A stretch of 41,731 nucleotides of DNA. It comes from Thermoplasmata archaeon (GTDB lineage: Archaea > Thermoplasmatota > Thermoplasmata > Lutacidiplasmatales > UBA184). The notes under the pieces were generated by a model, which saw only the letters and a program-made list of their open reading frames with translations, searched no databases and had not been told where the DNA came from. Each line of letters opens with the position of its first letter. The first letter of the stretch is position 1. Shown piece after piece: positions 3,016 to 8,182 of this stretch. The position numbers and the translations under genes were made by a program. Where the stretch lies: contig JAKABH010000009.1 of NCBI GenBank assembly GCA_021801925.1, positions 1-41,731 of the forward strand. The letters are read 5' to 3'.

Positions 3016-3051
3016 CGCCGGCCTGCGCTCGACCAAGGGAGGCACCGACCC

Positions 3052-3441
3052 ATGGTTCACGTAGAGGTTCGCCCGGCCGCGTCCCTGCAGGTGAAGACGC
3101 TCATCCGCGGCCAGAATCCCGAGGTCGCCGTTCGCGTCTACGCGCAGCCCGGCGGCGGCGGTTGCGGCGGCGGCTCGTCGGTGCAGTTCGGGCTCGCCTT
3201 TGCCCGGCCCCGGCCGGACGACGAGGTCATCCCGGGCGACGGCTACCGGCTCCTGGTCGACCCGTCCAGCACGAAGTTCGTCGACGGGGCGGTCATCGAC
3301 TACGTCGAGGGCCTCCAGGAATCCGGGTTCAAGATCACCAACCCGACGCTCCCGGAACCGGACGACGCGGGACGGTCCGGGGGCTGCGGCTCGTGCGGAA
3401 GCAACTCCTCCAACGGCGGCGGCTGCGGCTGCGGGCACTGA
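3052..3441 (+). CDS. HesB/IscA-type iron-sulfur cluster assembly protein with Cys/Gly-rich C-terminal extension
   Basis: MVHVEVRPAASLQVKTLI...VRVYAQPGGGGCGGGSSVQFGLAF...VDPSSTKFVDGAVIDYVEGLQESGFKITNPTLPE...CGSCGSNSSNGGGCGCGH. Confidence 0.85.
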   Translation: MVHVEVRPAASLQVKTLIRGQNPEVAVRVYAQPGGGGCGGGSSVQFGLAFARPRPDDEVIPGDGYRLLVDPSSTKFVDGAVIDYVEGLQESGFKITNPTLPEPDDAGRSGGCGSCGSNSSNGGGCGCGH

Positions 3442-6146: not shown

Positions 6147-6464
6147 ATGGCGAACGACGAGTTCGATGAGATCCTGTCCGCGCTCGACCGCGAGACCGCG
6201 CGCATCCGGGTCCGCGCCGAGCCGCGCCGGTACAACAAGCCCGCGACCGTGATCTCCGGCTTCCCGCCGGGGGTCGACCTCGAGGAGACGACCCGGACGC
6301 TCAAGAACCGCCTCGCGACCGGCGGCTCCGTGGTCGACGGCGAGGTCTACCTCCAGGGGGACCACCGGGCCCGGATCCGGGACGAGCTCGCCCGCCTCGG
6401 CTTCGACCCCGAGACGGTCGAGGTGTCGGACACGGCACTCCCGAAGCGGGGCCGCCGCGGCTAG
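6147..6464 (+). CDS. translation initiation factor SUI1/eIF1 family (aIF1)
   Basis: NKPATVISGFPPGVDLEETTRTLKNRLATGGSVVDGEVYLQGDHRARIRDELARLGF matches the SUI1 core. Confidence 0.93.
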   Translation: MANDEFDEILSALDRETARIRVRAEPRRYNKPATVISGFPPGVDLEETTRTLKNRLATGGSVVDGEVYLQGDHRARIRDELARLGFDPETVEVSDTALPKRGRRG

Positions 6465-6481: not shown

Positions 6482-6579
6482 CGGCCGGTCCGTACACCGG
6501 CTCCCCGTCCCGCCGGCCGATCGCCCCCCGGCGCCGCTCACGGTATATGCGGGCGCCCGGTCCCTTGACGGAGCCGACC

Positions 6580-7437
6580 ATGGCGGCATACGCTCACCCG
6601 GAAGTGCTGGTGGAGAACGACTGGCTCGCTGCGCACCTCACCGACCCCAAGGTACGGGTCGTCGAGGTCGACTACGACGCGGCGGCGAACTACGTACTCG
6701 GGCACGTTCCGGGCGCCGTGCTGTTCGACTGGCGACGCGACATCAACGACCCGGTCGCCCGCGACCTCCTCTCCCGGGAGGCGCTCGAGGCGCTGTTCCG
6801 CCGCGCGGGGATCGAGGCAGATTCGACGATCGTCCTCTACGGGGACTTCAACAACTGGTTCGCCGCCTTCGCCTACTGGGTCTTCGCCTACTACGGCGTC
6901 TCGAACACGAAGCTGCTGAACGGCGGCCGGAAGAAGTGGATCGCCGAGGACCGCCCGTTCACCAAGGCGGTGCCGACGCCGACCCCGAGCCGGTACACCG
7001 CCCCGGCCCCGGTCCCGTCGCTGCGGGTCTACCTGGACGACGTCCGGGCGGCGCTGCCCAAGGTCCAGGCGGGGAAGATGGCCCTCGTCGACGTCCGCGG
7101 GCCGAAGGAGTTCTCGGGGGAGGTCACGGCGCCGGCCGAATACCCGACCGAGCACGCCCAGCGCGGCGGCCACATTCCCGGGGCGAAGAACGTCCCGTGG
7201 GCCCAGGCGGTCCGGGACGACGGGACGTTCAAGTCCCGCGAGGAGCTCGAAGCGATCTACGGCGGCAAGGGGATCACCCCCTCCACTCCCGTCATCACCT
7301 ACTGCCGCATCGGCGAGCGGTCGAGCCACACCTGGTTCGTCCTCAAGTATCTCCTCGGATACCCCGACGTCCGGAACTACGACGGCTCCTGGACCGAGTG
7401 GGGGAACCTGATCCGGACCCCGATCGAGCGTCCGTAG
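6580..7437 (+). CDS. sseA: thiosulfate/3-mercaptopyruvate sulfurtransferase (two-domain rhodanese)
   Basis: ATG 6580; VLFDWRRDINDPVARDLL..., active-site loop YCRIGERSS; TATATG box at about 6544. Confidence 0.92.
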   Translation: MAAYAHPEVLVENDWLAAHLTDPKVRVVEVDYDAAANYVLGHVPGAVLFDWRRDINDPVARDLLSREALEALFRRAGIEADSTIVLYGDFNNWFAAFAYWVFAYYGVSNTKLLNGGRKKWIAEDRPFTKAVPTPTPSRYTAPAPVPSLRVYLDDVRAALPKVQAGKMALVDVRGPKEFSGEVTAPAEYPTEHAQRGGHIPGAKNVPWAQAVRDDGTFKSREELEAIYGGKGITPSTPVITYCRIGERSSHTWFVLKYLLGYPDVRNYDGSWTEWGNLIRTPIERP

Positions 7438-7460: not shown

Positions 7461-7478
7461 GGCGGAGGCGCCTCCGCC
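7461..7478. terminator. perfect 18-bp palindrome between convergent genes, possible bidirectional terminator
   Basis: GGCGGAGGCGCCTCCGCC, preceded by GCCCCCCCCCAAGGGGGC. Confidence 0.45.
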
Positions 7479-8182
7479 TACCCCGCTCCGCCGCGCGGGC
7501 GCCGGGTCGGCTTCGGGTCGGCCTCCTTGCGGACGAGGAACTGGTGGAGCGCCTCCTCGCGGCGGTGGGCGACGACCGTATGGCCGGTCTGGTCCGACCA
7601 GCGGACCATCTCGATCGGGCTCGTCGGATCGTCGGTAACGAGGAGGAGGTGGCTCCCCGCCGGCCGTCCCGCGAGCTCCTCGTTCAGACGGGAGAGGACC
7701 GCCGAGCATTCGCTGCCGATCTCGTAGAGCTCCGCGTCGGGCGTGGCGGGCCAGCAGCGGATCCGCTCGCGGACGATCCGCTCCTCAAGGCGGGCGGCGA
7801 TCGCGCTCGCCGGCTCCAGCGTGGGGGGGCCGGGCGGGGGCCCGGTCGGCCGGATCCGGACGATCCAGCCGTCGGCATACGGGGCGTCGTTGAGCAGCCG
7901 CGGGCGGGTCGAGAGCGCGGGGTTCCGCTCGAGGACGACGGCGTCGACCGGGAGGCGCACGGCGCCGGTATATCGGACGCTTTCCACGGTCGCCACGCTG
8001 CGGCCGGCGGCGACGGTCCCGTCGACCGGGCGGAACTCGACCCGCAGGAACGGGCCGGCGAAGGCGCCGAGGGTGGCGAGGAGCCCGAGCCGGGCGCTCC
8101 CGTCCGCCTCCGCCTGCCACCAGACGTCGTGCTCCAGGTCGTAGAGCCGGTCCTCGGGGAGCGGGCAGCCTCGGATCTCCAT
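7478..8182 (-). CDS. GcvH-like (lipoyl-fold) domain fused to TusA/SirA-like sulfur-carrier domain
   Basis: N-half: VESVRYTGAVRLPVDAVVLERN...LLNDAPYADGWIVRIRP (GcvH-like, Lys to Arg); C-half: AELYEIGSECSAVLSRLNEELAGRPAGSHLLLVTDDPTSPIEMVRWSDQTGHTVV...FLVRK aligns with TusA. Start ATG 8182 supported by a TATA box at 8207-8216. Confidence 0.8.
   Translation of the reverse strand: MEIRGCPLPEDRLYDLEHDVWWQAEADGSARLGLLATLGAFAGPFLRVEFRPVDGTVAAGRSVATVESVRYTGAVRLPVDAVVLERNPALSTRPRLLNDAPYADGWIVRIRPTGPPPGPPTLEPASAIAARLEERIVRERIRCWPATPDAELYEIGSECSAVLSRLNEELAGRPAGSHLLLVTDDPTSPIEMVRWSDQTGHTVVAHRREEALHQFLVRKEADPKPTRRPRGGAG

Follow-up and report, generated by a model that had tools for sequence, protein, structure and literature searches.

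The LbpA proteins of the sHdr system (PMC6067878, PMC10332631) share with the fusion protein described here the GcvH fold, an N-terminal GCxxP(E/D)D motif, a second cysteine near the C-terminus, and a VES-x-K/R hairpin. A strictly conserved Lys marks the Hdr-associated LbpAs, as do two strictly conserved cysteines, one near each terminus, that are absent from GcvH; with regard to the cysteines, some archaeal LbpAs are exceptions (PMC6067878). LbpAs are reportedly not modified by the canonical lipoyl machineries of E. coli and B. subtilis, and are modified by a dedicated ligase, sLpl(AB) (PMC10332631). In archaea, certain Sulfolobaceae are called the only ones known to oxidise elemental sulfur in a 2024 abstract (PMC11323534). 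How sulfur moves among TusA, LbpA, and sHdr, and what role the two LbpA cysteines play beside lipoate, are the questions that the locus described here addresses.

The window, that is, the whole stretch of 41,731 nucleotides analysed from a Thermoplasmata archaeon, encodes an LbpA-TusA fusion protein of 234 amino acids on its minus strand (7478..8182), with an ATG at 8182 and the stop codon at 7480-7478. An N-terminal domain of the LbpA/GcvH fold (aa 1-145, 7748..8182, minus strand) is followed by a C-terminal domain of the TusA fold (aa 147-220, 7523..7744, minus strand). The Pfam family GCV_H matched aa 13-114 (2.2e-20) and the TusA family aa 156-219 (1.1e-6), the latter with 28.8 bits, barely above the family cut-off of 28.6. 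Both families were matched in 39/39 full-length relatives that were aligned with the protein (alignment A1, identities 34-76%). The AlphaFold2 model obtained with this alignment reached a pLDDT of 94.1 and a pTM of 0.83. When the halves were compared with the PDB by Foldseek, the best matches of the N-half were GcvH structures, the leading ones with a TMt of 0.86-0.89. The C-half matched best the TusA chain of the E. coli complex with IscS (3lvj_C), with a TMt of 0.88 and an rmsd of 1.3. Structure prediction of both halves had been set beforehand as a test of the preliminary description of this DNA, and it returned a lipoyl/GcvH fold and a TusA fold. A chance ORF or an antisense-ORF artefact was excluded by the quality of the model, by about 92 distinct fusion homologues that keep the reading frame, and by a dN/dS of about 0.2-0.35 to the nearest relatives. 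It is therefore near certain that the protein is an LbpA-derived domain fused to TusA. Scans for sigma-70 promoters and terminators gave no match, and such scans are uninformative for an archaeal host.

The N-half had been described as GcvH-like from its landmarks. The GcvH fold was borne out by Pfam, AlphaFold, and Foldseek, but the landmarks proved to be those of LbpA. The NCBIfam GcvH models matched far under their cut-offs (71 vs 117 bits), and the protein is thus GcvH-like rather than GcvH. It has the fold and the Pfam family (PF01597) in common with GcvH, but lacks the lipoyl Lys and possesses two LbpA-type cysteines. Cys6 (codon at 8165..8167, minus strand), which lies in the motif GCPLPED, is invariant in 91/91 distinct fusions, and Cys143 (7754..7756, minus strand), which lies in RCW or RCF where the TusA domain adjoins, in 92/92. 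The stand-alone LbpA encoded in the sHdr cluster of the same genome reads MILNGCEFPDDRAYY...VESGKWAGPV...RCMRCQS, and an LbpA-like protein of an Acidithiobacillus ferrooxidans plasmid reads NGCELPED...LESGKWAGG...QCMRCSE. Stand-alone LbpAs from the same class, like the Acidithiobacillus protein, show about 34-38% identity to the fusion. The CPLP near the N-terminus, listed in the preliminary description as a further CPLP motif, is not a second TusA motif but the LbpA signature GCxxP(E/D)D, which stand-alone LbpAs also have. This motif signature makes an sHdr-type LbpA a better reading of the N-half than GcvH, and plain GcvH as the best name is ruled out by the LbpA cysteines. The N-domain tree alone, weakly supported in its root region, does not prove LbpA ancestry. 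The same genome encodes other GcvH-family proteins with the Lys, including a separate GcvH-like protein on contig C76. The Acidithiobacillus gene (plasmid pACF1, L177:787-1233) is annotated as glycine cleavage H and lies near DUF2249, hemerythrin, and HdrB-like (CCG) genes.

The C-half agreed with the preliminary description, in which it was TusA-like with the cysteine kept and CPxP lost. Fold, position of the cysteine, and the DDP...W...GH motif region are shared with E. coli TusA (3lvj/1dcj; PF01206), whereas the longer chain, an identity of only about 23%, and a CSAV-like sequence in place of CPxP set the fusion apart. The cysteine at the TusA persulfide position, Cys159 (7706..7708, minus strand), is invariant in 92/92 distinct fusions. 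The prolines are gone from the surrounding sequence (ECSAVL), and one divergent fusion has ECPET at this site. The loss of CPxP could mean altered chemistry. Because the fusion misses two LbpA features (the strictly conserved lipoate-accepting Lys, here Arg70, and a place in or beside an shdr cluster, the fusion gene being on contig C14 and the sHdr cluster on contig C46) as well as the TusA CPxP, it is neither LbpA nor TusA proper. Strictly speaking it is no LbpA but an LbpA derivative, and it constitutes a new variant that combines the known sulfur-carrier families LbpA and TusA. We found no description of a GcvH/LbpA-TusA fusion in the literature searched, which comprised titles, abstracts, and term counts, with few subscription papers.

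The replacement of the lipoylation Lys, already pointed out in the preliminary description, was confirmed: the codon of residue 70 is CGA for Arg (7973..7975, minus strand). In the AlphaFold2 model this residue sits in the turn that links strand 62-68 to strand 72-76, the hairpin turn that carries the lipoylated Lys in lipoyl domains. Of the 92 distinct fusions, 74 have Arg at residue 70, 16 have Lys, and 2 have Thr. Homologues that retain Lys had been proposed as a sign of a sequencing error; they do exist, but the error is ruled out, since Arg occupies the position in 66/66 sequences of the window's family (f1), via several codons, and the fusions as a whole use six codons for it. In an N-domain tree built without the residue-70 column, from a short alignment that leaves many forks weak, the fusions formed one clade with 98% SH-aLRT, including one partial contig-end copy counted as a singleton. 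The clade splits into f11 (Lys and Arg mixed), f25 (Lys, Arg, and Thr mixed), and f1 (66/66 Arg), and at least 8 changes at residue 70 are needed within it; even close sisters are unlike (L074 Arg, L076 Lys). As residue 70 flips beside three invariant cysteines, it probably does not serve as an indispensable anchor for a cofactor. Lipoylation appears to have been given up in most of the fusion family, the acceptor Lys being Arg throughout the window's family. Lipoate shortage as the cause of this loss was not supported, because LipA was present in 15/16 genomes tested (the exception being the incomplete genome from which the window comes), indicating that lipoate is generally available in these cells. 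The 16 of the 92 fusions with Lys might be lipoylated. Within f1, the closest homologue of the lipoate ligase of the C46 type was found almost only in genomes with sHdr, with weaker matches to other ligases elsewhere. Considering this together with the dependence of LbpAs on sLpl(AB), lipoylation of the Lys-bearing f25 fusions seems doubtful. Longer reading frames of Desulfobacteraceae (L084:1-1200 and L085:3466-5543) contain GcvH-like domains in which the lipoyl Lys is likewise missing (VRRGENR, KRKDNL); here a GcvH fold may have lost its anchor independently.

The distribution of the fusion was surveyed in a class sample of 300 genomes. In the genus to which the window belongs, 36/41 genomes carried it. 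Further genera of f1 had it too, as did families f11, f25, and f26. The f26 copy (L139, genome G184), which adds the fourth family, is a fragment cut by the contig end with Arg at the lipoyl site. The MAGs that contain the relatives bear titles naming Thermoplasmata or soil 'Euryarchaeota', and the carriers are archaea of acid soils and mines. Beyond the class sample, a search of the phylum added only stand-alone LbpA-like proteins (G323, G469). Such stand-alone proteins of other families also occur in G064, where they lack the N-terminal cysteine. No fusion was found in Bacteria with query-based patterns in genome contigs and a plasmid collection.

The strongest functional clue is the pairing with a rhodanese. 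Immediately tail-to-tail with the fusion gene lies a gene on the plus strand (6547..7437) for a two-domain rhodanese of the SseA/TST type (Pfam Rhodanese, 9.5e-33; 5.9e-112 against the rhodanese 1uar) with the loop YCRIGERSS, which contains Cys253. Its product, a protein separate from the fusion, is of the kind of the SseA/CysA-type thiosulfate sulfurtransferases (1uar, 3hzu, 3aax), with their two domains and CRIGERSS loop. The rhodanese gene was tail-to-tail with the fusion gene in 56/69 sampled loci. Across the 300 genomes, the two genes were convergent and less than 1 kb apart in 59/79 fusion loci, with a median gap of 53 bp. These convergent loci span three families (f1, f11, and a few of f25), and most other genes around the pair differ between families; in the remaining f25 genomes the two genes are more distant or on separate contigs. 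Both genes were present in 74 genomes, the fusion only in 3, the rhodanese only in 7, and neither in 216, as raw counts that include common descent and in which MAG incompleteness is noise; within f1 the corresponding numbers were 49, 1, 4, and 8. Several near relatives, G018, G061, G148, and G198 among them, lack the two genes together, and G102 and G240 have two fusions each, every one with its own rhodanese copy on its contig. The link to the neighbouring rhodanese that had been suggested at the outset is thus a strong, conserved pairing. Since the genes are convergent, an ordinary shared promoter is impossible, and the conserved adjacency may partly stem from shared ancestry.

A role in sulfur relay, as the preliminary description had proposed, is likely on this evidence. 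The fusion would act as a single-chain cytoplasmic sulfur carrier in which an sHdr-type LbpA is joined to a TusA domain. With thiosulfate or 3-mercaptopyruvate as the source, the active cysteine of the rhodanese would pick up sulfane sulfur and load it as a persulfide onto Cys159 of the TusA domain. From there the sulfur would pass via Cys143, which lies between the domains in the sequence, and/or Cys6 of the lipoate-free LbpA domain to an acceptor, for which the LbpA domain would offer a docking face that the acceptor recognises. The acceptor may include the sHdr machinery in sHdr-bearing genomes and a different enzyme elsewhere. Arg70 would retain the positive charge of the hairpin and could not accept lipoate. 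The computations establish the fusion, both folds, the LbpA-type cysteines, the loss of the Lys, the three invariant cysteines, the rhodanese pairing, and the independence from sHdr. We infer the persulfide chemistry, the direction of transfer, every chemical step, and the acceptor, and we lean with modest confidence toward this route. The fusion may in that case be a lipoate-independent sulfur-relay scaffold. More tentatively, the fusion might be an LbpA that works without lipoate, its two LbpA cysteines and the fused TusA cysteine sufficing for sulfur carriage. If true, the conserved cysteines of ordinary sHdr LbpAs would themselves be sulfur-carrying sites, with lipoate as an addition for the oxidative step, and the family would represent a rhodanese-fed, lipoate-free branch in archaea, mostly without sHdr.

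Among the other explanations, biosynthetic sulfur trafficking fares best. The protein would then supply sulfur in the manner of the rhodanese/TusA routes that serve tRNA thiolation, the molybdenum cofactor, or Fe-S clusters, with the LbpA domain as a mere docking surface. TusA serves tRNA thiolation and molybdenum cofactor synthesis in E. coli, the fusion is present in most sampled genomes of its genus regardless of energy metabolism, and a gene likely to encode a MOSC domain was seen by eye near several soil-clade loci. However, the invariance of Cys6 and Cys143 exceeds the needs of docking, and the near relatives that lack both the fusion and the rhodanese show the route to be dispensable. 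We regard this explanation as rather unlikely.

An accessory role in sHdr, in which a non-lipoylated LbpA docks on sHdr and delivers TusA-bound sulfur, was weighed against the distribution of sHdr itself. The window's own genome has an sHdr-like cluster on contig C46 with genes for AprA (TIGR02061, 928 bits), AprB, a DsrE2-like protein, two TusA, LbpA, lipoate ligase, and HdrB-like (CCG), HdrC-like, and HdrA-like proteins; this genome, the LbpA-like character of the N-half, and the presence of the fusion in 23/24 genomes with a close sHdrB homologue speak for such a role. On the other hand, a close sHdrB homologue was absent from 54/77 fusion genomes, among them G029, G019, G141, G002, and G070, which are an estimated 95-100% complete. 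Within f1 the association of fusion and sHdr was not significant (16/34/1/11, p=0.15), and the fusion gene is outside the sHdr cluster. As most carriers are without sHdr, the system is not specifically sHdr; a role in sHdr only is not supported, which corrects the sHdr setting invoked in the preliminary description. The accessory role is a still less probable account than biosynthetic trafficking. Contig C46 (L086:1-20000) also encodes a second GcvH-like protein with the Lys, lipoate ligases numbering two in all, and, by eye, EtfA/B-like proteins and flavoproteins. Sulfur-oxidation-like clusters of this type are also present in relatives (L090, L091, and L156-L162).

The fusion could also be a sensor of sulfane sulfur or thiol redox, its three cysteines forming disulfides or polysulfide bridges that switch partner binding. 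Three invariant cysteines, a cofactor site absent in most members, and the lack of a catalytic partner gene in an operon would suit a sensor, but the protein has no DNA-binding or kinase domain, and its pairing with a persulfide-making enzyme suits a carrier better, so that we consider a sensor improbable. That the fusion is a degenerate, drifting LbpA-TusA relic, as the loss of Lys and CPxP might suggest, is scarcely credible given the purifying selection evident in the dN/dS, the 60-70% identity across most of the genus, the invariant cysteines, the highly conserved ECSAVL and DDPTSPIEMVRW, and the presence and absence coupled with the rhodanese.

Evolution has here fused two players of sulfur transfer in a chain whose lipoate site most members have lost but which retains all three cysteines. 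What the LbpA cysteines do can thereby be tested on a single small, soluble protein whose partner gene is known, and the fusion and its rhodanese would mark a sulfur-handling pair in uncultivated Thermoplasmata.

Two further genes were observed near the pair. At about 3046-3441 of the window, the plus strand encodes a small protein of the IscA/HesB kind (PF01521) whose tail is rich in Cys and Gly (GGCGSCGSNSSNGGGCGCGH), and at several loci this gene (cluster C10) is a conserved neighbour of the fusion-rhodanese pair. A SUI1/YciH-like translation factor gene (6147-6464, plus strand) is conserved beside the rhodanese in 41 sampled loci, likely as shared synteny only.
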